The translations under genes and the position numbers were made by a program. A DNA stretch of 64,000 nucleotides from Liolophura sinensis (lineage: Eukaryota; Mollusca; Polyplacophora; Chitonida; Chitonidae), in contig NC_088300.1 in NCBI RefSeq assembly GCF_032854445.1, positions 56,828,984 through 56,892,983 on the forward strand. The letters run 5' to 3'. The notes under the pieces are model-generated. The model saw only the letters and a program-made list of their open reading frames with translations. It was not told the origin of the DNA and did no database searches. Shown piece after piece: positions 1 through 45,218 of this stretch. Position 1 is the stretch's first letter. Each line of letters opens with the position of its first letter.

Positions 1-1750
1 TTCAGTCCAGTAGCTTACATCACCAGATAGGATGAATATTCCTGTGTTGTTTTCAGTCCAGTAGCTGACATCACCAGATAGGATGAATATTCTTGTGTTG
101 TTTTCAGTCTGGTAGCTAGGATGAATATTCTTGTGCTGTTTTCAGTCTAGTAGCTTACACCACCAGATAGCATGAATATTCCTGTGTTGTTTTCAGCCCG
201 GTAGCTTACATTACCAGATAGGATGAATATTCCTGTGTTGTTTTCAGTCCAGTAGCTGACATCACCAGATAGCATGAATATTCCTGTGTTGTTTTCAGTC
301 CAGTAGCTGACATCACCAGATAGGATGAATATTCCTGTGTTGTTTTCAGCCCGGTAGCATACATCACCAGATAGGTTGAATATTCTTGTGTTGTTTTCAG
401 CCCGGTAGCTTACATCACCAGATAGCATGAATATCCCTGTGTTGTTTTCAGCCCGGTAGCTTACATCACCAGATAGGATGAATATTCTTGTGCTGTTTTC
501 AGTCCAGTAGCTTACATCCCCAGATAGGATGAATATTCTTGTGCTGTTTTCAGTCCAGTAGCTTACATCACCAGATAGGATGAATATTCCTGTGTTGTTT
601 TCAGTCCAGTAGCTGACATCACCAGATAGGATGAATATTCTTGTGTTGTTTTCAGTCTGGTAGCTAGGATGAATATTCTTGTGCTGTTTTCAGTCTAGTA
701 GCTTACACCACCAGATAGCATGAATATTCCTGTGTTGTTTTCAGCCCGGTAGCTTACATTACCAGATAGGATGAATATTCCTGTGTTGTTTTCAGTCCAG
801 TAGCTGACATCACCAGATAGCATGAATATTCCTGTGTTGTTTTCAGTCCAGTAGCTGACATCACCAGATAGGATGAATATTCCTGTGTTGTTTTCAGCCC
901 GGTAGCATACATCACCAGATAGGTTGAATATTCCTGTGTTGTTTTCAGCCCGGTAGCTTACATCACCAGATAGCATGAATATTCCTGTGTTGTTTTCAGC
1001 CCGGTAGCTTACATCACCAGATAGGATGAATATTCTTGTGCTGTTTTCAGTCCAGTAGCTTACATCACCAGATAGGATGAATATTCCTGTGTTGTTTTCA
1101 GTCCAGTAGCTGACATCACCAGATAGGATGAATATTCTTGTGTTGTTTTCAGTCTGGTAGCTAGGATGAATATTCTTGTGTTGTTTTCAGTCTAGTAGCT
1201 TGCACCACCAGATAGGATGAATATTCCTGTGTTGTTTTCAGTCCAGTAGCTGACATCACCAGATAGCATGAATATTCCTGTGTTGTTTTCAGCCCGGTAG
1301 CTGACATCACCAGATAGGATGAATATTCCTGTGCTGTTTTCAGTCTAGTAGCTTACATTACCAGATAGGATGAATATTCCTGTGTTGTTTTCAGTCCAGT
1401 AGCTGACATCACCAGATAGGATGAATATTCCTGTGCTGTTTTCAGTCTAGTAGCTTACATCATCAGATAGGATGAATATTCCTGTGTTGTTTTCAGTCTA
1501 GTAGCTTACATCACCAGATAGGATGAATATTCTTGTGTTGTTTTCTGTCCAGTAGCTTACATCACCAGATAGCATGAATATTCCTGTGTTGTTTTCAGTC
1601 TAGTAGCTTACATCACCAGATAGCATGAATATTCCTGTGTTGTTTTCAGCCTGGTAGCTTACATCACCAGATAGAATGAATATTCTTGTGCTGTTTTCAG
1701 TCTAGTAGCTTACATCACCAGATAGGATGAATATTCCTGTGTTGTTTCAG

Positions 1751-1771
<21 letters not shown>
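1..1771. repeat. 51-bp minisatellite, about 35 units, ending on an exon boundary
   Basis: Tandem 51-bp units fill the window from its left edge. Each holds a TGTTGTTTTCAG block, then a TCCAGTAGCT-like block, ACATCACCAG, and ATAGGATGAATATTC. Some units are shortened to 38 bp (near 105, 653 and 1150). A higher-order period of 548 bp (ten full units plus one short unit) makes roughly 147-428 and 695-976 near-identical. The last unit merges into the first visible exon of the downstream RUN-domain gene, so the array lies in, and reaches the end of, an intron of that gene. 51 is a multiple of three, which explains the open minus-strand frames here; they are not genes. The array continues beyond the window. 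Confidence 0.97.
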
Positions 1772-6662
<4,891 letters not shown>

Positions 6663-12166: not shown

Positions 12167-15100
12167 ATGAGTGTGAAGGCCTTTGAACTCGTGCCCGCCA
12201 TTGAGCGGGTGAAACTGATGTCGGACAAGGCGAAGACACAGGTTGCTGCAGCCAGTGTTGTTGTTGTACCACCTGTCATTATGGGATACGATGCTTGCAT
12301 GATCACATTACAACAATTAAACAAAAAAATCAGATCGCCGATTCGCTGATATTGGTTGCATCTTTAATAAATGAGTGAATTGTAAATCCAAATGAAACAA
12401 AGAGGAAATGCATTATTTTCTGAACAACGTGTGACAGGCCTTATACCAGTGTTAATTAAACTCAAGTTGGAGATAAATTATATGCAAAGACTTGGATCTT
12501 TTGAACTGCTAGCACTTCAAGAGATAGGCAGACAGAACGAAATTAGTTCTTTGTATTATCATCTAATAACTTTGGTTAAAATTAATAATAAATGGTTTTG
12601 GGTATCAAGTTAAATCTGCAGTCATTTTTAATTGGTCAAATTTGGAATTATGCAGTCATTCAAAAAATTATATTGAATATTTTGAAACATTACTCATGAG
12701 TAGAACCATTTAGAAATAGGCTGTCTGTTGTTTTCATGTTCTGATTTATCTTGTGTGGTCATTTTCATTAAATTTTCAACCCATATAATAGACTGAATGC
12801 AATGGTTATCATCCTTTCCTGCTATAATAAGACTTAGAAGTTAGTTGACTTTGTGGATTAAAATTTTATATATGTATGTATGTAATAAACAATGTTTAAT
12901 ACATTGAATTTAATGCATCAAGTTGGTTAGCGCGCTAGCACAGCGTAATGACCCAGAAGCTGCTCACCAATGCGGTCGCTGTGAGTTCAAGTCCAGCTCA
13001 TGCTGGCTTCCTCTCCGGCCGTAAGTGGGAAGGTCTGCCAGCAACCTGCAGATGGCCGTGGGTTTCCCCCGGGCTCTGCCCGATTTCCTCCCACCATAAT
13101 GCTGGCTGCCATCATATAAGTGAAATATTCTTGAGTACGGCGTAAAACACCAATCAAAAAAATAAATTAATTAATGCATCAAATTTGGGTGCATTTAGTT
13201 CAGAGATTCCAGTATTCAAATTCTTATTTATAATACCCTAAAAATAAGTTTTTTGCACTGAGCACTTCTATGCTTTCATGAGGTGTTGTATGTATTGTTG
13301 ACTTATGAGATCTTTTCTCATTGCAGATTGAGTGTATTGAACTATGTGGGAAGAACCTTTACATTGGAACCAATGACTGGTATGTATTAGACAACCATTT
13401 GAAAAGGAAAACCGTACAGTTCTTGTGTTTGCATTTGTTACTGGTATTTAATTATCAAGCTAGTATTATCTGTAGTAAGTGATGTATAGTGACACATAAA
13501 GTAAGCTTTTTGGTATGACACTTGTGGAATTACATGTACGTAGTTGATATTGCTATATAGGACTCTTACAATGATAGAACATATTGGTTTGTTTGCTGAT
13601 GAGACAGATTGTTTCGAATCCTGTTTTTTTTTTGTGTTTCAGCTTTGTGATACATTATGTCCTTGAAGAGAAAACCAGTCAGTCTGGAAAAGTTGTGTAT
13701 GGCAGTGAAAAACAGGGCCACAAGTATTTGACACTGGTAAGCCTGGTTGTTATGTGTGCACTTTTCTTAGACATACAGGTTTTGGCCTGTCTTAAACACA
13801 GTAAATCGTCAACCTTTTCAACCACTGAAGCACTTTTTTAGTGGAATTTATGGACACTGTTAATATGAAAATGGCAAGGGAAAGGATGTGTTTGTGTCAT
13901 TAAAGAGGAAAGCTTCTTAAAACTGTGCAAGTTATTTCTCCACACCCCAGAGTTCTCTCAGAATGTTTCAAAATATTGGTTGCATTGGCGGTTGAAATGG
14001 TTGAAGAGTTAGGGTACGTGTTCAGATAACCTTTTAATTTTTTTAGAGAATTATTAAAATAGTGAGTAGAGTTAAACAATCACAGTACACATTTCACATC
14101 TAAAACATCTGAGCATCAGTGTTATTAGAGGATGTGTTAAATTTGGTATACTCTGGAAAACATTGAAAGTACTAAATTTGTAGTTTGCCAGTATGTTGGA
14201 CTGATTTTGTTATTAAGAATGTAAAGCCCTCTTCATTTGTATAAAATAATAATGTATAGAAATTAAACCCGGTCCTGAGTGAAAAAGATCATTTGAAAAA
14301 TTTTTGATCCATTTTTAGTAATTTTATAAATCATTTTGCCTTTAATTTCAGAAAAAACCAATTAGCCAGCTGAAGGCTGCCCCTGCCCTGAACAGAATAA
14401 TGGTGCTGTGTGACTCTACACTGACCCTTCTGAACATGTTTGACCTTGAGGTGAGATGAGTGATAAGTAGACAAAGTGATGCGGATGGAAACATTGAGCA
14501 GTATTACAAAGTTGACGTTTTGAGGCCTCCCAGTATCGTTATGATTACCGTATACTGAATTCTAACAGATTTAATCATAGCAACATTAGAGCATTGTGTG
14601 TAGCATCTAATCAGAGATGTCATTGTTCATTTTATGCCATTTCATGTGTAAAACCGTTTTAGAGAGAATACGATAATCTTGATAAAGAATTATACTTGAT
14701 GTTACTTTTTTTTTCCTAGCCAATCCTGACAGGTGCCAAGATCAAGGGTGTGGTTTATTTCTGTCTCAACGAGAACCCTGTACACTCCAATCCATTCAGT
14801 GTAGAGGTACATGTATGGCCTACTTATATATCAACTTCAGCACCTTCTTTATCTGTATATGACATGTTTGTCGAGTTGTGAGATATTTAACAATGATTTC
14901 TCCTGGGTGAAAGTTAAGATGGTAATATATTACCAGTGTCGGGTATCCTGGTTCAAGAAGATTTGAAAATTCCACGTATTCAGTCATACTTGCCAACGCT
15001 TAGCCCAAATATTTTCACTCCAAGATTCTTTTCAACGTTACTGATTTAATATCTTTAAATTAAATATATATTTAATTCTTTATTTTTTTATATCTCTGTT

Positions 15101-18100
15101 TCTCGGTATGTTTATAAGGGCGAAATTTGTTTTAAACTCACTTTTCCAAATTTGCTTGTGATTTGGTACCAAATTTGAACATTTTATTTGACCTTCTTTC
15201 TATTTGTACAAAGTCATGATTCTTGCCTGGTATTTGCGGTACCTCCTGTTTGCACTTGTGCGCTGTCACCGTTGTTGTTGACAGGTATGCGTGGCACTGA
15301 AGAAGAGGCAGATCCAACTGTACACAGTGACAGAGGATAAGATCATCCATACGCGGGACATTTCTTTACCAGAGCCTGCTCTCATTCTGGTGGGTACAGG
15401 CAAGAATGTGCACTCTGCCATGAAAGATCAAGTCAAGCTAGTTTTGAAAATTCACACATATCACAGTAAGATCTATCTGATGTTGATGTGTGTCATGTCT
15501 GGTGTCAGTGTTCTGTTACTGGTAGGTGTCATGACTGGTGTTGGTGTTTTGTTACTGGGTGGGGTATCATGTCTGGTGTCGGGTTTTCCTCCTGGTTGTT
15601 GTCATGTCAGGTACCTTTGCTCTGTCACAGAGTAAGGTGTAATGTTAGGTGTCTGTGTTCTGTGACTTGATGTTGTGTCATGCATATGTCCATTAACTGG
15701 ATTGGTGTCCTGTCTGGTGTCAGTTTTTGGTGTTCTGTTACTAGGTGTGATGTCATATCTGGTGTTTGTGTTTTGTGAGTGGGTAGAGTGTCATGTTCTA
15801 TGATTAGATGAGGTATCCTACCAGGATATAAATTTGTAGACGTTACTGATGTTTATATTCCACAGAGTATGGATGGAGTGTTTGTATGTGCTGCCTTGAC
15901 CTCCCAGTATTGTATGATTAACTATGAGAGTAACAATGTCCAAGATCTCTTCCCACTGGAGAATGAACACACAAAAGCTATCATCAAGAGGATCAGTAAG
16001 GTAAAGAACTATGCTAAATAAGTAACTTAGTCTCATTATCCGTTAACAACCAGTTTAACCACTTACTAAAGTAATTCCTCCAAAACAAGTAAGTTTTCAT
16101 CATAGATTTTTTCAGAGTGTCCTCAGTGGCAGAGCATTCAGTTCAAACCATTATCATTTGACGAGCTATTTCACTAGTTCTCTTTGCCTTGTCTTATGCT
16201 CATTAATTACGACACTGTTGTTGGGAAACAAATCTTTTGTTATAAATGGTATGTGGTATAGAAAGTTCTTCATCCACTGACAGACAGTGATGTAGGAATG
16301 GACACATTTTAATGGCAGATGTAAATTGTGAGTCAAATCAGCATAGTATCATAGCCCAAATTATATCCAGGATTTTAAAGATGTGTCCTTATTTAAAAAA
16401 AGAATGACCAAATACAGAGAAGGCCGGGCTCTTCCACTACCAGGCATGGCACCACTTTTCTGTCCAACCATTATTGCACAGTTCGTTCAAAGCAGCAAAC
16501 TCTCTTGATAGGTGGTTTGTGCCAATTTTTACACATTATTTCTAAGGTTAATCTCTGCGTGGAGATTTTAGCAGCACCAATAGGTGGACAAACCTTTTTG
16601 TTATTATGGAGTTACCTCCCCTCCGTTGCCGTTGCGAACTCAGTGATTGATAAATATGAAAGATAAAGCCCCATCATTCCTTTGATTCTTTAAAGGGTCC
16701 AGAATGACCCTTGATCTAACCCTGATAGTTACCTTTGAATAATAACATAATCACCAAAAGCCTAAGTTCAAAGATGGTACAAGATGTGAAGGTTTTCCTC
16801 ACTGTAACATTTGACTGATGTTTGCAACAGTGTCAGTACACGTATTTGTTATTAAGTGTGTTATAATGTGGGAGTGGTATAAGTGTAGTGAGGTGCAATG
16901 ATTTTCTCCTTGTTCTGCCAAGTTTCTTTCCCAAAGATGACTGCCAATTTATATCTGCAATTTTGTTAAATACTATAATTCTTGTAAGTTTTGGAACATC
17001 AGGCGTGGTCCTGTTAACCAATATACATGTACATGTAATTGTAACAAAAACACACAATTTCTCTCTTGTCACATGACTAGTCCATCTAATGAACAACATA
17101 TAAGATATGCTCTCCCGAAGAAACTGAGAGGGAAATGTAATTTTTGGCTTTCATGACTGCTGTCATTGTCCTAAAAGTTAGAAGATTTGCAGTATACATG
17201 ACATAATTTAACTACAATCAAATAAAACAAACCAATATGTTTTCAAGGCATATTATGTAGAGAGCCAGGTTTTTGCTTGGGCATGTCATAATCATGGTAG
17301 CATTCACAAGTTATTCAGATGTTTAGTGTGCTGCTTTCTCATTGGTCACAGGAGGAGTTTCTGTTAAGTGGTCCCAGTGCTCTTGGCATGTTCGTCACAT
17401 CTGCAGGGATATCCCAGAGGCCTCCTCTACAGTGGAACAACAATCTGATAGGTGTGACATTCGTCCATCCCTATATCGTCTCCATGAATGATGAGTTCAT
17501 ATCCGTTCACAGGTAACTGATGTCATATTGCATTTGGTTTGTTAAACCTCTAGTTAGAGGCTTGCTGTTGTGCTTGTAAGTCAAGATATGTGAACATTGT
17601 AAATTTAATACTAGGCGAAACTCCTTTAATAGGAGACCTTATTCCAAATAAAATATTTGATTAAGATACAACGGTATTCTTGAAAATTTGTTGGATTTAA
17701 ATGATTTTTGTTAAATGCATTAGACTTCATTTTGTACAAAGACTATTTAATAATTTGTATATTTCTTTATTTATTAGTGTTGATTGATTTTAGTTTTGTT
17801 TAAGTACCAATTAAGCACTTTTCGGGCCTAGGATTCTACATACGTACTTCATGTAAGAAGAAACATGAATAAAAATGGTTTGCATTTGACCTAACAGTAT
17901 TTTAGATCAGCAGCAGAAACAAAGCATACCATTTCAAGGTGGTTCATACCTAGGCGAGTATGATGGGAAGATTTTTGTGTCGTCTGCCAAAGAGATATAC
18001 AGCCTTGTTCCTGTAGCCTGGGAAAAACAGGTTTGTCTTACAAGGTCATTTAGCATTTTTTTAGAGTAGTACATTTATATTAAAAAATTTTACGGTAGAA

Positions 18101-21100
18101 TTTTTTTTGTTATTTTTTTTTTTTTTAGTTTCACGGGTGCTGGAAACCAAATTTTTTGTTCTTTCTTTTTTAAACATATATTTTTGCAACCTGAAATAAA
18201 AAGCCTCAATGGCGAGTTGAATATCTTTGTTGTAAGTTGTCAAAAAGGAGCATCCAGTTCAGTTAGCTCCATTTTAGTTAGAATATGCCAGTAGTGCTTC
18301 TGTGAATAACAATATTGATGTTTCTCTGCTGACAGATCCAGTCCCTTCTGGCAGACAAGAGAGTAGCTGAGGCTTTAGAGCTCACCAAGAATGCTAAGAA
18401 GACTGGGCTGAGCCGAGAGAAGTTTATGAGAGTGAGTTTCTGGATTACACATTAAGTTTACGCCATAATCGGTGGCCAAATCACTTAGCCATAAGAGACC
18501 GCTTCAGTGTCACAAGAAAACACAATATATGTACACCCACTTATTTACTTGTTGTCATATGGTACAAAAATTGTTAAGTACAATGTTAAACCCCAAGCTT
18601 ACATGCATACTTAGCCATAAGAATGAGTTTATGGATTACAAATAAAGTTTGCACCATAACCGTTAAATACTCAATCTTAATTTAAGTCAAATTTAAAACT
18701 CATAACAATGCTAATTTTGTGCGAATTTGGAGTTAAGATTGTGATAGATATGCCTCATATTCCAACTATTAAGTGTTCACAATGTGTACCCAAGGATTAG
18801 GTCCAAATTAGCATTATGGTAGATCTTTTGTATTAATCAGATGTAAAATTCAGAGCTCACTTTCACAAAACTTAATCTGAACCCCATGTTATATAAAAAA
18901 AAGTTACAAGAAATATGATTGATGAAGTGTTGTGAAATTGACGTCCGATATGAAACCCAATCTGACATCCAGTTTAATCAGCGTCAGACTGCATCCAGTA
19001 GTAAGCATTATGTCATCTTCTATGAGGTGCATTTAAAGGTTGGTAAGTAAGTACTCTAATAAGATGTTCCTTATTAGTAAACAAATTCTTAGCTTATTAG
19101 CACAAATCGTTATTATCGTTATATCGTTATGAAGTAATCATTATTCCCGTTATATAGCAATGTCAAACTATCCCAGTTTCGTGTTTGTTTGTACAGATCT
19201 AGGATACCAGTTATGAAAACATTTAGCTCTAGTGAAAATTTAAACATGGACATATCACAGCCTTGTTCTGTTTTTCTCTTGAGCAGTTGTTTCGTCGCAT
19301 CCAGCAGCAGGCGGCATTCATTGAATTCAGTCAGCAGCACTTTGAGGAGGCCAGAGAGCTGTTTAAAGGCGGCCAAATTGATGTCAGAGAGGTCAGTGTG
19401 CTCCAGTTTTTTTCTGCTTTGTTTTCCTCACAGTTGCAAATCTTTGTTATTACACCTAATGCCCAAGTGCATCCATGTGTGACTCTTATTCATTTCACAT
19501 TATTAAATGTATAATGTAGTCTTTTACGATTCATAATATGACTTTTACTTTTAAAAAATGTATCTTTTAATGATTATTAAGAAATCTAATTTTTGGGCAG
19601 AAGTGAATCAGAGTCAAGTCTAGATAATATATTCATGGTACCAGCATTATTTATTCTATAATTTTCACATTCATGAATTTCTGTATGTTGAATACTTGAA
19701 TAGGTACTCAGCCTTTACCCCAAAATGCTGCCTTCCTCTTCTAACTTTGCCCGGGCTGTTCCCCCTCTCCATGACATCGCTGACCTCAATCAGCTGACCA
19801 AAGGTGACATAGAGGTCATGAAGGAATACAAATACTTCCTTAGGTCCTATTTGGAGGAGATCCGTGGAACAAGAGAAGGCATGGGATTTAAACAGGTCAG
19901 TATCTTCCACAGCACCATTATTTGTCATTATATCAAGTTATTTATGTACATGGTGTTTAACACAGTACTGAAAAACTTTCCCGTTACACGCCCTTTACCA
20001 GGTTTACAAGTAAGGACATGAAAGTGTCCTGTTGCCAGGTACATGACAGATCTACTGACTTAAAGCTGCAGACTATTTAGAGAGAGGCTCACATTGGCAA
20101 ACTTGTTTGTCTGGCCTTATGAACTACAGTGAGAAGAATGATTAATTAGACAGCAACGGTCCTCCGTAATAATTTGTTTATATATACTTGTACGTATATA
20201 GAAGAGAAAAGGCCCATGTACAACAGCAATTATATATAAGTTGAGTTCAGTGACCTGGTTGACAGCAGCATGTGATGAAAATCTGTGAAGATGCTTGCCT
20301 TTTGTACAGCAGCAATGTTATCTGTTTAACTTACTTGCCCAGGAGGTATCCACAGTGCTGTATCCCTTCTTTACCCCACCTGCTGCCAGGATGACAAAAA
20401 TTTAGATATGAAACATGTATTTAAAAAAATAATCAATGCTGAAGTCTCATAATTGTATTACTGCAACCTTTTCGCTTGTTTGCAAGGTGTTTATTTAAAC
20501 ATATTCTGAAGGTTTTATTCTGTGTAGATGGAAAACATTACACTATTTGTGAAGCCCTGAAATTGACCAATCGAAGCAATGTAGTCTTGTCTTCAAAGTC
20601 AGATAAGATGTGCATAAGATGCCCTGAAAGTTGCTCTTTTATTTGTGAAAAGGTTGAGGAATGAGGCGAAATCCAAATATTGGTAGATGTTTTGATGATA
20701 TAATGCACAGTGCTTTCCTTCTGGGTGAAAAAAAATCAAATAGAAGGTGTTACCAGAGAAATCAAAGCCGTAGTTCCTTTTCCAACAGGAGATAGATGGA
20801 GCACTTCTGAAGTTGTATGCAGAGGTTAACTCCCCTGAACTAATCCCCCTGATCGCCATTGACTCTGGCTGTGACCTCAAGGACTGTACAGAGGTGCTAG
20901 AGCAGTACCACAGGTATCACGCCCTCGGCCTGCTCTACAAGTTCCACGGGGAGAATGACAAAGCTCTGCACACATGGAGCAGGTAAGAGTTGATTTTTTT
21001 GTCCCAAAAATTGAATGTGTGATAGCAAGCAAACTCCATATAAAGTCTTACGTTGAGAGGTGAAACTTACTTTTCCAGTAGGATATCATCATTACCTTCC

Positions 21101-24100
21101 AGAGCACCCTTCTAAGATCAACAAAATTCTCAGATGAAAAAAAAATGAGCAAAAATTTAGGTCATTTACATGTACCTTATGAGCTGTTCTACACCACAGG
21201 AAATAGACCATGTTTATGTGGCAGGACCTAACATGCTAGTCATTGTTTTCCATGCTTCAAACATTTTGCAAGATACTGAACATATCTGCATATGTCTCTA
21301 GAAATAATTTCTGTATTTGAGTTATCTAATTTCAACGTGCAAAACTTAACTTTACCTGCAGGAAATGTGAATTTTTCGTTGCCCTCTCAAATTAGGAAAT
21401 ACTTGCACATATGTGAGTTAATAGCTAAATTGGCAGCTTTGACGCTTCATTTGTTGAGATGTTTTTATCATTACCAGGCTTGTTAATGGCGAGATTGAGG
21501 ATGAGTCCTTCCCAGGGTTTGAGTTTGTTGTGGAGTTTCTGGCAAAGTAAGTTTTCTGACAATCTTCTATCACAACATTATGTGTATAAAGCTTTCTTGA
21601 TGTACATGGCATACTTATGAGGCTGCTTGTTAAAGTCTTGTAGATATTTCCACACATAATTGTGTTTCACAGTAACTCAGGTGATTGTGGTACAAGTTCC
21701 CTGTAATGAAGATTTGCATTTGACAACAGAAGATATATATGGATCATAACTTCTATTTATTCAGTGAGCGACGTTTCAGTATAGATACTACCTTAATTCC
21801 TCAACTTTTTCGCATAGAAAGATTAACTTTCTGTGTAGTTTATGCTCATTTTTAATTTGTTTTTGGAACAAAACTACGTTGGTTGGTTTGGCCATTTTCA
21901 TGGCTTCACATAAAGTATAGTTTTATCAGGCAATACAGAATAATGCCTTCAGTAATTGCTTGAATGAAGGCCTTGCAAACACACAAAAAGTTTGAAAAAT
22001 TACAGTAATACTGCTGTCTCTCCGGCCGTAAGTGGGAAGGTCTCTCAGCAACCTGCGGATGGTCGTGGGTTCCCGCGGGCTCTGCCCGGTTTGCACCCAC
22101 CATAATGCTGACCGCCGTCGTATAAGTGAAATATTCTTGAATAAATAAATAATACTGTTGTTAGGCATGATATGCTTGATAATGGTATTAGTATCTACAT
22201 GAAAACATCACCCCCTGAATGAATAGCAGTTATACCGAAATGTCGCTCACTGAATAAATAGAAGCTGTAATCCATGTATATCTTATGTTAGCCAACCAAG
22301 CTTCTAAATGCAGTTGAAAGAAGTCACTTTGCATTTGACATGAGCTGAAGTATCTTTTACCTTTAATCAGAAGAAAGAGCAAGAACTGAAAGCCTTATCG
22401 GTCACACATGCTTGTTTCAGTAAATGAAATTAACTTTAAATAAATTATTAGAATGTTTAACTGATCTGGGTTTAGCGCCACACCAGTAGTATTAAAGCCA
22501 TATCTTGGCAATAAATTATATAATGATGTGAAGAATAAAGCCATATATTACTCTGAATCATGAAATGTTTAATTTGTAGTTTAAGTGATCATGAGTTGAT
22601 ATGGAAGTATGTGGACTGGGCTTTGGAGAAGGATGAAGACATTGGAGTGAAGGTGAGTGTGATACACTGTGATATCACAGCCTGCCAGCTGGGAGCATTT
22701 GGACATTAGTTCATTAAGATTGGAGCAGAGGGAAAGGTTCTAAAGAATAATTTTAATTGTTCATACATCATGATTCCTGATCATGAAATTTTCCAAGATC
22801 AGTGCTTACGCAGGGTTTGTAGGGGTCCTTAAAATCCTGGAAAGTCCTTGATTTTAGATGAAGTGATTTCCAGACATGGAAAGTCCTTGATTTTAGATGA
22901 AGTGATTTCCAGACATTGAAAGTCCTTGATTTTAGATGAAGTGATTTCCAGACATTGAAAGTCCTTGAAAATCATGTATTTTTAAATAAGTGCTTGAAAT
23001 TTAGAAATTTGTCCTTAGTATTTTTTTGTTACAAGTAGTTTACTGCCAAATAAACATGTATGTTAAATGCTTAGTGAAATTTGCTTAAATATACTGTAGA
23101 CCAAAAATAGTTGAACACAAGTGTAACTGTGATTATACATACCGATGTTAAGGGAGGTAACCATCGCTAGATGTCGCTCCTGTCAATCTGATACCGCTGT
23201 CCTGTTTCTGAAAGTGATAGGATACAAACCAAAAGCTAAGTTCGTCTTCTTGAGGATGGACTCTCACATGTTACTCCAGACTTCACCATGCCAGGAAAGC
23301 ACATCTTTAGCAACCTTTACATGTGATATGGGTGCAATAAAAACGATGCGATTGATGTAGCCTCGTCCAAAACTGATGCCAACTGAGCGCCAGTGCTGAC
23401 GGAAATGCTGGCAGATTAAAAGTTAACTGGATGAACTGAAAACAGTTGCCATACATGAGACATTATTCATTTTTTTTTTTGTATTTTTTTATTTATTTAT
23501 CTTTTATGATATACATATAATGATTTTGAACATGAAGTTACATGAAAATCAGCTGGTGGCCATGTAAAGCTTAAAGAATAAATCGGTTCATTTCATATAA
23601 TTGAATTTTCTTGTTTTCTGACCTGAAATTGTCAAGAATAACTTGCAGTTGTGATGTACACTAGATATGTAAGATAATGGCTTAAAAATCTCAAAATACA
23701 TGCCAGAATCTTCTATTATGTGATATGGGGAAAGGTACCTGATGCTACAGAAGTGTGGGCATTGAAGTGCCATGCTGTACATGTAGGTGCCTGATGCTAC
23801 AGAAGTGTGGGCATTGAAGTGCCATGCTGTACATGTAGGTACCTGATGCTACAGAAGTGTGGGCATTGAAGTGCCATGCTCTACATGTAGGTACCTGACA
23901 CTACAGAAGTGTGGGTATTGAAGTGCCATGCTGTACATGTAGGTACCTGACGCTACAGAAGTGTGGGCATTGAAGTGCCATGCTGTACATGTAGGTACCT
24001 GACGCTACAGAAGCTTGGGCATTGAAGTGCCATGCTGTACATGTAGGTACCTGACGCTACAGAAGCTTGGTGATTGAAGTGCCATGCTGTACATGTAGGT

Positions 24101-27100
24101 ACCTGATGCTACAGAAGTGTGGGCATTGAAGTGCCATGCTGTACATGTAGGTGCCTGATGCTACAGAAGTGTGGTCATTGAAGTGCCATGCTGTACATGT
24201 AGGTAACTGACACTGATGCCCAATAAAGTCACACTGCATATGTATATCATGTATACTGACAAGCCAAGTCCAAGTCATCTTGCGCAGTTCCAATGGTAGT
24301 TCAGGGATATGACTGTAGGTTTTCAAATTACCAGTCAGACACTGTGACCATTGTGGGGGATGTCATTGTCAATCAGATATGTGGGGTTAATGTATGTCTA
24401 TGTCATTGTACAAACAAGTTAATATAAAAAGTATGGTTGCTCATTTGCATGTGGATTAAGATCCTTGAAAGTGCCTGAAAACAAAACTATTTAAGTCCGT
24501 GAAAGTCCGGGGAAAATCTTTTGTTTATTCCCTTGATTCATGTTCATGTAATGGTATATGAATAAGTATGTATTATCTTGAATTTTTAATGTCCCCTGAA
24601 TGTTTGCTAGGAAAATTGACACTTTAAAGTATGACCTTCCAGACTATGCAATCATCAGCCAAGTGTGATATGTTTCAGATTTTCACGGAACGTCCTGCGT
24701 CAGAAGCTCAGACAGAGAGATTGCGGCCTGACACTGTTGTCGACTATCTACACAAATTCCCAAAGGCTGTCATTTCTTACCTGGAGTATCTTGTCTTTCA
24801 GAAAAAACTTGAGGTTTGTAGAAGTTTAACTTAATAATTCTGTATGTAAGTGGGAAGGTCTTCCAGCAACCTGCGGATGGTCATGGGTTTCTCCCGGGCT
24901 CTGCCTAGTTTCCTCCCACCATAATGCTGGCTGCCATCGTGTATGTGAAATATTCTTGAGTATGGCATAAAACACCAATCAAATAAATAAAATACATAAT
25001 AATTATATAGAATGAAAAACTAAACTTGTCATACATGAATTTTAGGTGCATATTATTATATATCGTTCATTATATTTCTTGAACTTCGGTAAATTTGGTT
25101 AAACAGTGACAAATAATACCATGGTCAGTAAGCCAAATCATGTAAGTATTGTAAGGGTTGTGTGAAACCACAGCCAAAAAGTAAATTTGGGGACCTTTTG
25201 TCAGTAGATTGTAATGTTAGACTGTTTTCTCAGTGGACAATCCACAATTGCTTTAATGAACTGCCCCTGATAACATGTTCGAGACTGTTGTATATTAACA
25301 TGCTAATTTTTTCAATAGCTGAGACATCCTGCAGAAAGTCCTTTTCTTACTCAGACGCCTCAGTAAATAAATGACCCATGTTAAAACACGAGATGTCAAC
25401 AATTTGATGTACTTAGTGACTCTTTGAGCTGCTGATGACAGTTACATATGGCATCCTTTTCTGTTCTTGTGTATGATCTGTGACAGTTACATATGGCATC
25501 CTGTTCTGTTCATGTGTGATCTGTGACAGTTACATATGGCATCCTGTTCTGTTCATGTGTGATCTGTGACAGTTACATATGGCATCCTGTTCTGTTCATG
25601 TGTGATCTGTGACAGTTACATATGGCATCCTGTCCTGTTCATGTGTGATCTGTGACAGTTACATATGGCATCCTGTTCTGTTCATGTGTATGATCTGTGA
25701 CAATTACATATGGCATCCTGTTCTGTTCATGTGTATGATGTGTGACTGTTAACAGAAGGAAAAGTACCACACCCACCTGGCTGTGCTGTACCTAGATGCT
25801 GTGCTCAAACTGCTTAAGGACCCCAGTGCAAAGAAAGAGGACCAAGACATTGCCAGGTGAGGGCTCAGGGTTTATTACATGACTGTGAAAAACCAATAAC
25901 CTGTTTGTCTATAGTTTGAGATGTAATGTAACTTTCAGCATTATTTCAGTCATATTAAAGAAGCTATGCTGCAGATTTTTGGCAAATAATCGATCAGTGC
26001 AAATGTTTGTTATTATTTTAGAATAGCCAAAGTAACTACCTTCCAAAATATATTAGCCTTCTCTCTGCACATGTTATTGCTCAAAATAGGTAATAAATTT
26101 TCTAAAATTTGTAACACTAGTAGCATTATAACTTTTTCAAACTTCAAAATCATTTTAACAGTATAAATAGTACAGGTACCTGTCTGATATTTACTCAAAG
26201 GAAATAATTTGAGCCATTCTGAAAAAATGCTGAAAATTTGATTTGATCTAATTGATTTTTGCTTAAAATCTCCAGTATAGTCTCTTCAAAATGGTGTCTC
26301 TTTGCACTAATATTTCAACTATGGTGTCACTGAGATGCTATGTGGACGACAATAAACTGCTGACTCCGACTCAGGATGGCATCCAGGTCTTCTTGAAATG
26401 TGAAATGGAGTGAGGGATTTAACATGATTCGTGTTGTGTTTGTTTTAGATCGAAGCTACGTCACATGTTACAAATGTCCAACTTGTACCGAGTTCAGTTG
26501 ATCTTGGGAAAGGTTCGAGAGACTGATATGTATGCAGAGTGTGCCATACTCTACGGAAAGGTAGGATGTTTGTTGAAGTTGATCAAGTTTATTTAGTAGA
26601 GTAAAAGTTTGCTGGTGGTGAAGACCTTGCCAGGGCCTACACTACAAGAGTTATCCCCCTTAGTGTGACTGATCATTCATCAGCGTTGTGCCCACTTATA
26701 TATACTGTTCTTTCACTGTTATTTTGAGTATTCGTGGAAGTTTTTGATTGATTTTTTTAATAAATGAATAGTATTGGCCTCCTTGGAATTTTCGTATAGT
26801 TGTGTGTTGAAACAGAAGAGGTATCAGATTGAGGATGTAGATATCATTTGCTTATCAAGTTTTTGTTTGATATTTGCAGCTGGAAGAACATGATAAGGCA
26901 TTGAGGATTTTAGTTCACAAACTTAAAGATTATGGTGGTGCTGAAAACTATTGTTTGGTGAATTCCCACGGCAAAGAACATTCCTACAGAAAGCGACTGT
27001 TCCATATATTATTGAATGTGTACTTAGATCCTAACTATGAGTAAGTACATGAGGACTAAGTGCAAGTGAATAAGCATTGGACTTTATTATACTGGTATCA

Positions 27101-31139: not shown

Positions 31140-34100
31140 GATGTGAAGCAGTAGTCTGGACTGGGTTTGGGGTACTGCTGGTGGCTGGATGTGGAGCATG
31201 AGTCTTGGCAGGGTTGAGGATACTGCTGGTGGCTGGATGTGGAGCATGAGTCTGGACTGGGTTTGGGGTACTGCTGGTGGCTGGATGTGGAGCATGAGTC
31301 TTGGCTGGGTTGGGGATACTGCTGGTGGCTGGATGTGGAGCATGAGTCTGGACTGGGTTTGAGATACTGCTTGTGGCTGGATGTGGAGCATGAGTCTGGA
31401 CTGGGTTTGGGGTACTGCTGGTGGCTGGATGTGGAGCATTAGTCTTGGCTGGGTTGGGGATACTGCTGGTGGCTGGATGTAGAGCATTAGTCTTGGCTGG
31501 GTTGTGGATACTGCTGGTGGCTGGATGTGGAGCATTGTTCTTAGTTGGGTTTGCAGTATTGCTCTTGGCTGGGTTTGGGTACTGCTCTTGACTGGATTTG
31601 GAGCATTAATCTTGGCTGGATTTGTGTTATTGCCCTTGGATGGGTTGGGGATACTGCTCTTGGCTGGATGTGGAGCATTGTTCTTCGTTAGGTTTGTACT
31701 ATTGCCCTTGGCTGAGTTTGGGATACTGCTCTTGGCTGGATTTGTAGCATTGCTCTTGGTTGGGTTTGCAGTATTGCTCTTGGCTGGGTTTGGGATGCTG
31801 CTCATGGCTGGATTTGGAGCATTGCTCTTGGCTGGGTTTTAGATAATGCTCTTGGCTAGATTTGGAGCATTAGTCTTTGCTGGGTTTGGGATACTGCTGG
31901 TGGCTCAATGTGGAGCATTAGTCTTATTTGGGGATACTGCTGGTGGCTGGATGAGGAGCATTAGTCTTGGCTGGGTTGGGGATACTGCTGGTGGCTGGAT
32001 GTGGAACATTAGTCTTGGCTGGGTTGGGGATACTGCTCATGGCTGGATGTGGAGCATTGCTCTTGGTGGGTTTGGGATACTGCTGGTGGCTGGATGTGGA
32101 GCATTAGTCTTGGCTGGGTTGGGGATACTGCTCATGGCTGGATGTGGATCATTAATCTTGGTTGGTTTGGGATACTGCTGGTGGCTGGATGTGGAGCATT
32201 AGTCTTGGCTGAATTTGGGATGCTGCTGGTGGCTGGATGTGGAGCATTAGCCTTGGCTGGGTTTGGGATACTGCTGGTGGCTGGATGTGGAGCATTAGCC
32301 TTGGCTGGGTTTGGGATACTGCTGGTGGCTGGATGTGGAGCATTAGTCTTGGCTAGGTTTGGGATACTGCTGGTGGCTGGATGTGGAGCATTAGCCTTGG
32401 CTGGGTTTGGGATACTGCTGGTGGCTGGATGAGGAGCATTAGTCTTGGGTGGGTGTGGGATACTGCTGGTGGCTGGATGTGGAGCATTAGCCTTGGCTAG
32501 GTTTGGGATACTGCTGGTGGCTGGATGTGGAGCATTAGTCTTGGCTGGGTTTGGGATACTGCTGGTGGCTGGATGTGGAGCATTAGCCTTGGCTGGGTTG
32601 GGGATACTGCTGGTGGCTGGATGTGGAGCATTAGTCTTGGCTGGTTTGGGATACTGCTGGTGGCTGGATGTGGAGCATTAGTCCTGGCTGAATTTGGGAT
32701 GCTGCTGGTGGCTGGATGTGGAGCATTAGCCTTGGCTGGGTTTGGGATACTGCTGGTGGCTGGATGTGGAGCATTAGTCTTGGCTAGGTTTGGGATACTG
32801 CTGGTGGCTGGATGTGGAGCATTAGCCTTGGCTGGGTTTGGGATACTGCTGGTGGCTGGATGAGGAGCATTAGTCTTGGGTGGGTTTGGGATACTGCTGG
32901 TGGCTGGATGTGGAGCATTAGCCTTGGCTGGGTTTGGGATACTGCTGGTGGCTGGATGTGGAGCATTAGTCTTGGCTGGGTTTGGGATACTGCTGGTGGC
33001 TGGATGTGGAGCATTAGCCTTGGCTGGGTTTGGGATACTGCTGGTGGCTGGATGTGGAGCATTAGTCTTGGCTGGGTTTGGGATACTGCTTGTGGTTGGG
33101 TTTGGGTATGCATCATGCTCCTGGTTGGGTGTGCAGCATTGTTCTTGGCTGGGTGTGGAGCACTGCTTGACTGGGTGTGCAGCATTGCTCTTGGCTGGAT
33201 GTGGAGCATTGCTCTTGTCTGGGTGTGTAACATTGCGCTTGGCTGAATGTGGAGCATTGATATTGTCGGTGTGCAGCATTGCTGGTGTCTGGGTGTACAG
33301 CATTGCTCTTGGCTGGGTTTGCAGCATTGCTCTTGACTGGGTGTGCGGCATTGCGCTTGGCTGAATGTGGAGCATTGCTATTGTCTGGGTGTGCAGCATT
33401 GCTCTTGGCTGGATGTACAGCTTTGCACTCGGCTGGACATGGAACATTGCCATGTTCATGAGTGTGGAAAGCTGCTCTTGGCTGGGTGTGAGGAGGTGTT
33501 GCTCTTGACAGGGTGCGGAGCTTTGTTCTTGGCTGGGTGTGAAACATTGATCTTGTCTGGGTGTGGAGCATTTCTCTTGGCTGGGTGTGAAACATTGATC
33601 TTGTCTGGGTGTGGAGCATTTCTCTTGGCTGGGTGTGGAACATTGCTCTTGGCTGGGTGTTGGGCATTGATCGTGTCTGGGTGTGGAATATTTGCTCTTG
33701 GCTGGGCTTGGGGCATTGCTCTTGGTTGGGAGTGGGGAATTTCTCTTGTTTGGATGTGGTTCATTGCTCAAGTTGCATGTGTTTGGAGAAATGTTCTTGG
33801 CTGCATGCATGAGAAGAAATGCACTTGGTTGCATGTGTGTGGAGAAATGCTCTTGGCTGTATGCGTGTGGAGAAATGCTGTTTACTGCATGCATGTGGAG
33901 AAATGTTGTTTACTTCAATGTTATGACAAAGTGCTCTTGGCTTCATAAATGGAGAGAAATGCTCCTGGCAGCATGAATGTGCAGACATGCACTTGGCAGC
34001 ATGAGTGTGCGGAAATGCTCTTGATTTGATGCTTGTAGAGAAATGCTCTTGGCTGCATGAGTGTGGTGAAATGCTCTTGACTTTATGAGTGTGGAGAAAT

Positions 34101-34700
34101 GCTCTTGGCTTTATGAGTGTGGAGAAATGCTCTTGGCTTTATAAGTGTAAAGAAATGCTCTTGGCTTCGTGAGTGTAGAGAAATGCTCTTGTCTTTATGA
34201 GTGTAGAGAAGTGAGTGTGGAGAAATGCTCTTGGCTTAATGAGTGTGGAGAAATGCCCTTACCTTTGTGGGTGTGGAGAAATGCTCTTGGCTTTATGAGT
34301 GTAGAGAAATGCTCTTGGCTTCATGAGTGGAGAAATGCTCTTGGCTTTATGAGTGTAGAGAAATGCTCTTGGCTTCATGAGTGGAGAAATGCTCTTGGCT
34401 TTATGAGTGTAGAGAAATGCTCTTGGCTTCATGAGTGGAGAAATGCTCTTGGCTTTATGAGTGTAGAGAAGTGAGTGTGGAGAAATGCTCTTAGCTTTAT
34501 GAGTGTAGAGAAATGCTCTTGTCTTCGTGAGTGGAGAAATGCTCTTGGCTTTATGAGTGGAGAAGTGCTCTTGGCTTTATGAGTGTAGAGAAATGCTCTT
34601 GGCTTCGTGAGTGTGGAGAAATTCTTCTGGCTGCGTAAGTGTAGAAAAATGCGCATAGCTGCATGGCAGTGTGGAGAAATGTTCTAGGATACATGCGTGT
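31140..34700. repeat. Large G-rich minisatellite in three monomer zones (48, 24, 26-28 bp)
   Basis: Zone 1 (about 31140-33110) has 48-bp units built on GGGATACTGCTGGTGGCTGG and ATGTGGAGCATTAGTCTTGG. Zone 2 (about 33110-33770) has 24-bp units such as GTGTGCAGCATTGCTCTTGG-CTGG. Zone 3 (about 33770-34700) has 26-28-bp units, AGTGTGGAGAAATGCTCTTG followed by GCTTTATG. All share the TGTGGAG...CTCTTGGCT core, so the zones derive from one ancestor. Because the units are stop-poor, several frames on both strands stay open, including one of 465 codons (32497-33894, minus); these are most simply by-products. The + strand is strongly G over C. Confidence 0.95.
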
Positions 34701-34759
34701 GGAGTGTTTGTTCTAGCCGAACATGAAACACTACCCCGTAAATAGTGCAAAAATTGCAT

Positions 34760-38811: not shown

Positions 38812-38928
38812 CGGATGGTCCCCCGGGCTCTGCCCGGTTTCCTCCCACCATAATGCTGGCCGCCGTCGTATAAGTCAAATATTCTTGAGTACAGCGTAAA
38901 ACACCAATCAAATAAATAAATCAATCAA
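38812..38928 (+). mobile_element. SINE family A, 3' fragment
   Basis: ACCTGCGGATGGTCCCCCGG with a short internal deletion, CCTCCCACCATAATGCTGGC, GAGTACAGCGTAAAACACCA, then AAAT and CAAT repeats. Confidence 0.92.
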
Positions 38929-40898: not shown

Positions 40899-40994
40899 CT
40901 GGTGCTGCTCGGTTTCCTCCACCCACCAAAATGCTGTCCGCCGTCGTATAAGTGAAATATTCTCGAGTACGACATAAACACCAATCAACTATAA
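40899..40994 (+). mobile_element. SINE family A, 3' fragment
   Basis: GCTCGGTTTCCTCCACCCAC, AAAATGCTGTCCGCCGTCGT, GAAATATTCTCGAGTACGAC and a CACCAATCAA end. Strongly 5'-truncated. Confidence 0.88.
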
Positions 40995-44575: not shown

Positions 44576-45169
44576 TCAAAGTCGTTGGAAGATATCATAC
44601 TTGTCTTTGAACCCTATTTTCTTGCTCTTCGCATCAGCTTTCTTCTTGGCTGCCAGCTGTTCTCTCATTTCTTTGGCAGACATTCGCATTAACGGGTCTC
44701 CATTGGCTTGGGCACCATTTGTCTGGGGTTCTGGTTTTGGAGGCTGCACTGGCTCTGGGGTAGGAGCTCTTACAGGTTCCGGGGTAGGTTCCCTAACAGG
44801 TTCCGGGGTAGGTTCCCTAACAGGTTCCGGGGTAGGTTCTCTAACAGGCTCTGGTGTTGGTGCTCTGACAGGTTCTGGAGTTGGATCTCTCACAGGCTCT
44901 GGGGAGGGCTCTCTGATGGGTTCCGGAGAAGGTTCTCGGGCAGGTTCTGGAGAAGGTTCTCTGGCTGGTTCCGGAGAAGGTTCTCGTGCAGGTTCTGGAG
45001 AAGGTTCTCTGTTGTGCTCTGGTTCAGGATCGTCTGTAGGAGGAGGAGGGATTGTGAACTCAGCTATTGCAGACTCAGGCTCTTCTCGCTCAGGAGCAGC
45101 TTCTACTTGACTTGTATTGACAGCGCTTATTTCCTCATTATCTGAATCCAAGTCAACCTGGCCGTTTGT
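44576..45169 (-). CDS. C-terminal exon of an unidentified Pro/Glu/Arg-repeat protein
   Basis: The minus strand has an acceptor TTATTATTGCAG before 45169, then 197 codons to TGA (44576-44578). Residues 1-52 are acidic (DLDSDNEE) with a PPPP patch. Residues 53-148 are 12 octapeptides of the type REPSPEPA, drifting to VREPTPEP and ending VQPPKPEP. Residues 149-197 form a basic helical-looking tail with [15 protein letters not shown] and [10 protein letters not shown] at the end. The repeats have diverged at third positions but keep the amino-acid pattern, and the non-repeat tail is compositionally normal, which supports real coding. I do not recognise the family. The architecture suggests a flexible, possibly phosphorylated (SP/TP) spacer before a conserved terminal peptide. 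The opposite-strand frames here are shadows. Confidence 0.75.
44726..45013 (-). repeat. 24-bp coding repeat, 12 units (octapeptide R-x-P-[ST]-P-E-P-x)
   Basis: The 24-bp repeats within the exon encode the octapeptides. Units nearest the N-terminus use Ser-Pro, central and later ones Thr-Pro, and the last Lys-Pro, so there are three sub-blocks. Confidence 0.93.
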
Positions 45170-45218
45170 CTGCAATAATAAGTTTTTTTCACCATAAGTA
45201 AGGGATCTCCTTCTCCTA

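Follow-up and report, generated by a model that had tools for sequence, protein, structure and literature searches.

A minisatellite that repeats a predicted 3' splice site of a RUN-domain gene in the chiton Liolophura sinensis, most likely a further mirage

The window analysed here, 64,000 nucleotides of Liolophura sinensis contig NC_088300.1 (assembly GCF_032854445.1, positions 56,828,984 to 56,892,983 of the forward strand), opens inside a minisatellite that runs up to the first visible coding exon of a predicted gene (Table 1). The seven predicted exons of this gene (E1 to E7) join in a single, fully phased frame of 283 codons plus a stop, and E1, taken from 1751, has an open frame of 146 nt up to its donor GTGAGC. 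The predicted protein matches the Pfam RUN domain (PF02759) with an E-value of 2.8e-25 over residues 102-270 of 283; the Pfam query differs from the corrected gene model by one residue at the E5/E6 join. The host looks like a RUN-domain gene of RUNDC1-like type, as the stretch around IMKKAL appears to resemble vertebrate, including human, RUNDC1. A search for orthologues of the RUN protein gave 14 pattern matches in a prokaryote collection and one in a viral collection, none of which was confirmed, and a PDB search with the first exons returned a single match up to an E-value of 10 (at E 0.41).

Downstream lies a second plus-strand gene, modelled in part (13327-26560), with CNH and Vps39_1 domains, which we take to be TGFBRAP1-like. 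A SINE-like element, presumably of a molluscan type, occurs in seven copies around CAAGAATATTTCACTNATACGACGGC, with 0 expected in shuffled sequence; its motif had no counterpart in two sequence collections or in the literature searched. On the minus strand, an open frame at 44576-45215 with repeats of the REPSPEP/REPTPEP type is apparently a 24-bp coding minisatellite; it had no Pfam match up to an E-value of 0.1. At 31140-34704, 48/24-bp and 28-bp units make up a large, strongly G-skewed minisatellite complex. Scanning the window for Rfam families and tRNAs returned no matches.

Table 1. Features of the array, the RUN-domain gene and the SINE-like element, in window coordinates
Feature	Position	Strand	Remarks
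Minisatellite	1-1750	+	35 upstream junctions; found by junction cutting and Tandem Repeats Finder
Two successive 548-bp blocks	1-1096	+	543/548 bases identical
38-bp unit	108-145, also 656-693 and 1153-1190	+	13 bp short
Lone upstream junction without AG	1541-1547	+	TTTTCTG
Candidate branch-site-like CTTAC	1709-1713	+	A at 1712, 38 nt upstream of 1750, where the AG ends
Last, partial copy	1751-1772	+	opens the predicted exon (22 bp), with TCCGG at its start
Alternative acceptor	1769-1772	+	CAG/A, phase 0; outscored by 1751 with two of the three matrices
RUN gene E1	1751-1896	+	first visible predicted coding exon; donor GTGAGC
RUN gene E2	2321-2426	+	weak donor GTCTGT (1.09)
RUN gene E3	3225-3320	+	
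RUN gene E4	4575-4685	+	
RUN gene E5	4995-5185	+	
RUN gene E6	5514-5608	+	
RUN gene E7	6556-6662	+	last exon, with stop codon
SINE-like copies	2858-2883, 5876-5901, 13108-13133, 22114-22139, 24933-24958, 38862-38887, 40940-40965		

The array consists of a unit of about 51 bp repeated in tandem over bases 1-1772 of the plus strand, with 35 copies upstream of the predicted coding exon. Because the window opens inside the array, the start of the array lies beyond the left edge and the count of 35 is a lower bound. Tandem Repeats Finder gave its best rows a score of 2514 over 117-1772, and bases 1-117 fell in other rows. Cutting the array at its TTTTCAG-like junctions yielded 36 of these, namely 35 upstream and the predicted real one at 1750/1751. 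Their spacing was 51 bp in 31 cases, 38 bp in three and 50 bp in one, the last being the unit next to the exon, in which one T is missing. Comparison of bases 1-548 with bases 549-1096 gave a match at 543 of the 548 positions, so that this part of the array was probably formed by a recent block duplication and growth would have proceeded partly by whole blocks of 11 units. Such a block copy fits a recent change of length in the one haplotype represented here. The minus strand has open frames of up to 180 aa across the array; that of 180 aa (147-689) stays open because the unit length is a multiple of three, so that any frame free of stops persists, and it shows no sign of being a gene.

An earlier note on this DNA had described the array as a minisatellite that repeats a 3' splice site about 35 times, and this description holds: the AG is kept at 34 of the 35 upstream junctions, the exception (ending at 1547) having CTG, and the first upstream junction is clipped by the window edge to TTCAG. 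The acceptor that the note quoted for the first visible exon of the RUN gene is also found as given, with TGTTGTTTCAG before and TCCGGTAGCTT after the 1750/1751 boundary, as is the additional T of the upstream junctions relative to that of the exon. Homology to the array continues for 22 bp beyond the predicted junction, into the predicted exon, and stops at 1772.

Two candidate acceptors, 1751 and 1772, are both in phase 0, and we compared them with three scoring matrices. The two local matrices were built from the 17 other modelled acceptors of the window, and percentiles refer to the plus-strand AGs beyond 1900. With the zone-smoothed matrix, 1751 scored 3.41 (97.4th percentile) and 1772 scored -1.58 (75.8th percentile); the 17 acceptors, scored with the same matrix by leave-one-out, ranged from -5.42 to 9.3 with a median of 4.27. 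A human-type matrix placed 1751 at the 94.6th and 1772 at the 81.0th percentile. The unsmoothed matrix reversed the order (88.3rd percentile for 1772 and 77.0th for 1751) and scored 1751 under 16 of the 17 other acceptors (leave-one-out); with 17 sites this matrix is noisy, and it is the least trusted of the three. An exon start at 1772 had been named in advance as a finding that would speak against the proposal, and it is disfavored by two of these scorings and favored by one.

The earlier claim of a premature stop, whichever upstream copy were used, is borne out by the sequence for all 35 decoys. In the phase of the exon, the stop comes after nine codons in 22 decoys and after three codons in the other 13, in these through the TGA of a CTGAC variant (ten decoys) or within the 38-bp units (three decoys). 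The particular decoy that had been quoted, starting with TCCAG and reading SSSLHHQIG before a TGA, is one form among several. TCCAG opens 14 of the 35 upstream units, and the other 21 begin with CCCGG (nine units), TCTAG (eight), TCTGG (three) or CCTGG (one); TCCGG was found in none.

Thirty-three of the 35 decoys could be scored, as one is without enough context and one is without an AG. All 33 scored above 1751 with each of the three matrices, and the last copy therefore cannot win on local strength. Donor-like sites within the array were weak: the 160 GTs had a top score of no more than 0.96, compared with 1.09 to 7.01 for the 13 modelled donors on the donor scale used. Given such weak GTs, the most likely effect of decoy use would be a longer E1 and not a separate exon. 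We considered RNA structure as a means of masking the decoys and rejected it, as the predicted fold of 1599-1896 (298 nt around the last copies) was no better than chance when compared with shuffled sequence (z 0.64).

To place the array within the window, we scanned the 51 nt around each of 31 modelled junctions, comprising those of the RUN gene as far as it is visible and of the downstream gene in part, for copies within 3 kb at an edit distance of 12 or less. Copies were found for one of the 18 modelled acceptors and for none of the 13 modelled donors. The copied acceptor was that of E1, with 34 copies at 3 to 10 edits. Many other minisatellites are present in the window, several with acceptor-like AGs on one or the other strand, and in a control array (25436-25751) all six plus-strand AGs reached the score of the weakest decoy (unsmoothed scoring). 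Acceptor-like repeats alone are not special; overlap with a modelled exon edge is, and this was seen once in the window. The intron before E6 contains a 38-bp array (5299-5407) with acceptor-like sites, CTTTTGCAG occurring twice and CTTTCGCAG once; the edit-distance scan found no copies of the E6 junction.

The units also bear on the direction in which the array grew. In the single haplotype, the TCCGG start is found in the exon copy alone, and the T deletion in the last unit alone; both bear on whether the boundary copy was kept out of homogenisation, as expected of a mirage. One or two CpG-type transitions separate TCCGG from 25 of the 35 upstream copies (those with TCCAG, TCTAG or TCTGG), and the other ten (CCCGG and CCTGG) carry a change of another type relative to the exon copy. 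The CpG-type pattern would fit growth of the array from the junction, with the constrained exon keeping the ancestral form. The end of the array at 1772, exactly at CAG/A, is also what one would see if the array were intronic and extended up to the true acceptor. That the array repeats an intron-exon junction has the support of the sequence and of close precedents in amphioxus; its growth out of that junction is plausible, and recruitment of a splice site from the array fits too.

We also compared variation in the two parts of the unit. Among the 21 distinct full units (of 31), the mean pairwise difference was lower in the intronic part (0.058) than in the exonic part (0.121). Variable columns made up 6 of 29 in the intronic part versus 10 of 22 in the exonic part, a difference that is not significant (Fisher p 0.074) and that compares non-independent units. 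The AGs of the decoys have not been purged, which argues against strong harm and does not separate neutrality from function.

We consider it probable that the array is a long "mirage", a term used in amphioxus for minisatellite-like tandem duplications of intron-exon boundaries (PMC3087553), that it arose as a by-product of repeat growth and that the last copy is chosen for its nearness to the donor. A 51-bp segment taking in 29 bp from the 3' end of the intron and 22 bp from the start of the next exon would have been multiplied by tandem and block duplication to give the minisatellite. The donor at 1896 would then be paired, by exon definition, with the nearest good acceptor, at 1750/1751, and the upstream copies would mostly be spliced out with the intron. 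E1 is 146 nt long via the last copy, and decoy exons would measure from 196 nt up to 1,891 nt or more; we infer that nearness to the donor is the simplest reason for the choice of the last copy. Rare use of a decoy would give rise to transcripts with an early stop, which would probably be degraded. The array would most likely be a tolerated by-product of repeat instability, with no demonstrated function.

It is unlikely that the ancestral exon began at 1772 (CACCAG/ACT ATG) with a wholly intronic minisatellite upstream, and that splicing either still uses 1772 or has recruited the last TTTCAG, adding seven codons (SGSLHHQ before TMSIMKK). The end of homology at 1772, at a phase-0 CAG/A, and the preference of the unsmoothed matrix are what such a history would predict; however, the pyrimidine tract at 1772 is poor, a second branch-like CTTAC has its A just 9 nt upstream of 1771, where that AG ends, and the remaining two scorings rank this site lower. 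An alternative promoter or first exon is very improbable; transcription would then begin downstream of the array, the ATG at 1775 or at 1784 would open the protein or a short isoform, and the TTTCAG motifs would not be splice sites. While both ATGs are in frame, the phased frame is open upstream of them to 1751, and the scores of 1751 with the smoothed and human-type matrices point to an acceptor there. The N-terminus of vertebrate RUNDC1, presumably longer than that of the visible product, further suggests that upstream exons lie outside the window.

A different proposal accepts the duplicated boundary and gives it a role: decoys would be used substantially, the resulting early stops would lead to nonsense-mediated decay, and the length of the array would set expression. 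Retention of the AG at nearly all upstream junctions, the higher scores of every scorable decoy, the early stop behind each of them and the lower variation of the intronic part are all compatible with such a rheostat. However, the difference in variation falls short of significance by columns in units that are not independent, and published mirages, in the available text of two reports, reportedly leave splicing undisturbed (PMC3087553, PMC3902484). We therefore regard regulation by poison acceptors as improbable. As judged from its sequence, the array would at present count as one further mirage, and the poison-acceptor reading is unproven.

If the array is a mirage as we favor, it would extend mirages beyond lancelets. 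Near-identical acceptors before one exon, with a stop behind each wrong one, would allow a clean test of the choice between equal 3' splice sites, and array-length alleles would supply the dose for it. The array is also relevant to the idea, proposed in the amphioxus globin paper, that minisatellites can move boundaries and give rise to introns (PMC3087553). A stronger statement is doubtful: that this mirage lies outside cephalochordates and exceeds the copy numbers of BflGb6 (at most 6) and PGBD5 (at most 7) in the available accounts, that its last copy prevails over at least 33 higher-scoring acceptors, and that array length forms a natural dose series for the selection of one acceptor by exon definition and might, as decoy transcripts decay, control how much the gene is expressed. 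Among the literature matches listed, judged by title and abstract start, none was a mirage in a mollusc, although this does not prove that none has been published.

Repetition of a gene's own splice site within a minisatellite is reportedly known from the human interferon-induced gene 6-16 (IFI6), where multiple splice donor sites are said to have been described by Turri in 1995; the site repeated there is a donor, whereas here it is an acceptor. Tandem repeats in human segmental-duplication genes resemble this array in that minisatellites shift exon limits, and internal repeats at exon-intron boundaries may create new introns; in that study, the units average 30 bp in four copies and the focus is on recent paralogues and intron gain (PMC2812944).

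The closest likeness is to the mirages of amphioxus Adh3 and the globins BflGb6 and BflGb9, in which a boundary is duplicated and many, but not all, repeats carry AG or GT signals (PMC3087553). Here the repeats span the predicted exon-intron boundary by 22 bp into E1, and the splice signal is present in nearly all units (AG in 34 of 35 upstream junctions). As in the chiton array, the duplication in BflGb6 covers the 3' end of an intron and the beginning of the exon that follows (exon 2). The BflGb6 units number 6 or 3 and measure 150-160 bp, and those of the Adh3 mirage measure 10-72 bp (PMC3087553); the chiton array, in a different gene, has 35 or more upstream copies of a unit of about 51 bp. 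In lancelet PGBD5, also a different gene from this one, tandem repeats of 2 or 7 x 60 bp and 3 or 6 x 108 bp overlap splice sites (PMC3902484). The Adh3 data and globin RT-PCR suggest that regular splicing is undisturbed (PMC3087553); the PGBD5 repeats were likewise judged not to disturb splicing, and Adh and troponin C were added as mirages without aberrant mRNA (PMC3902484). The hosts in both reports, in the text available, are cephalochordates (PMC3087553, PMC3902484). By analogy with these systems, the chiton array is most likely a further case of a type already described in lancelets.
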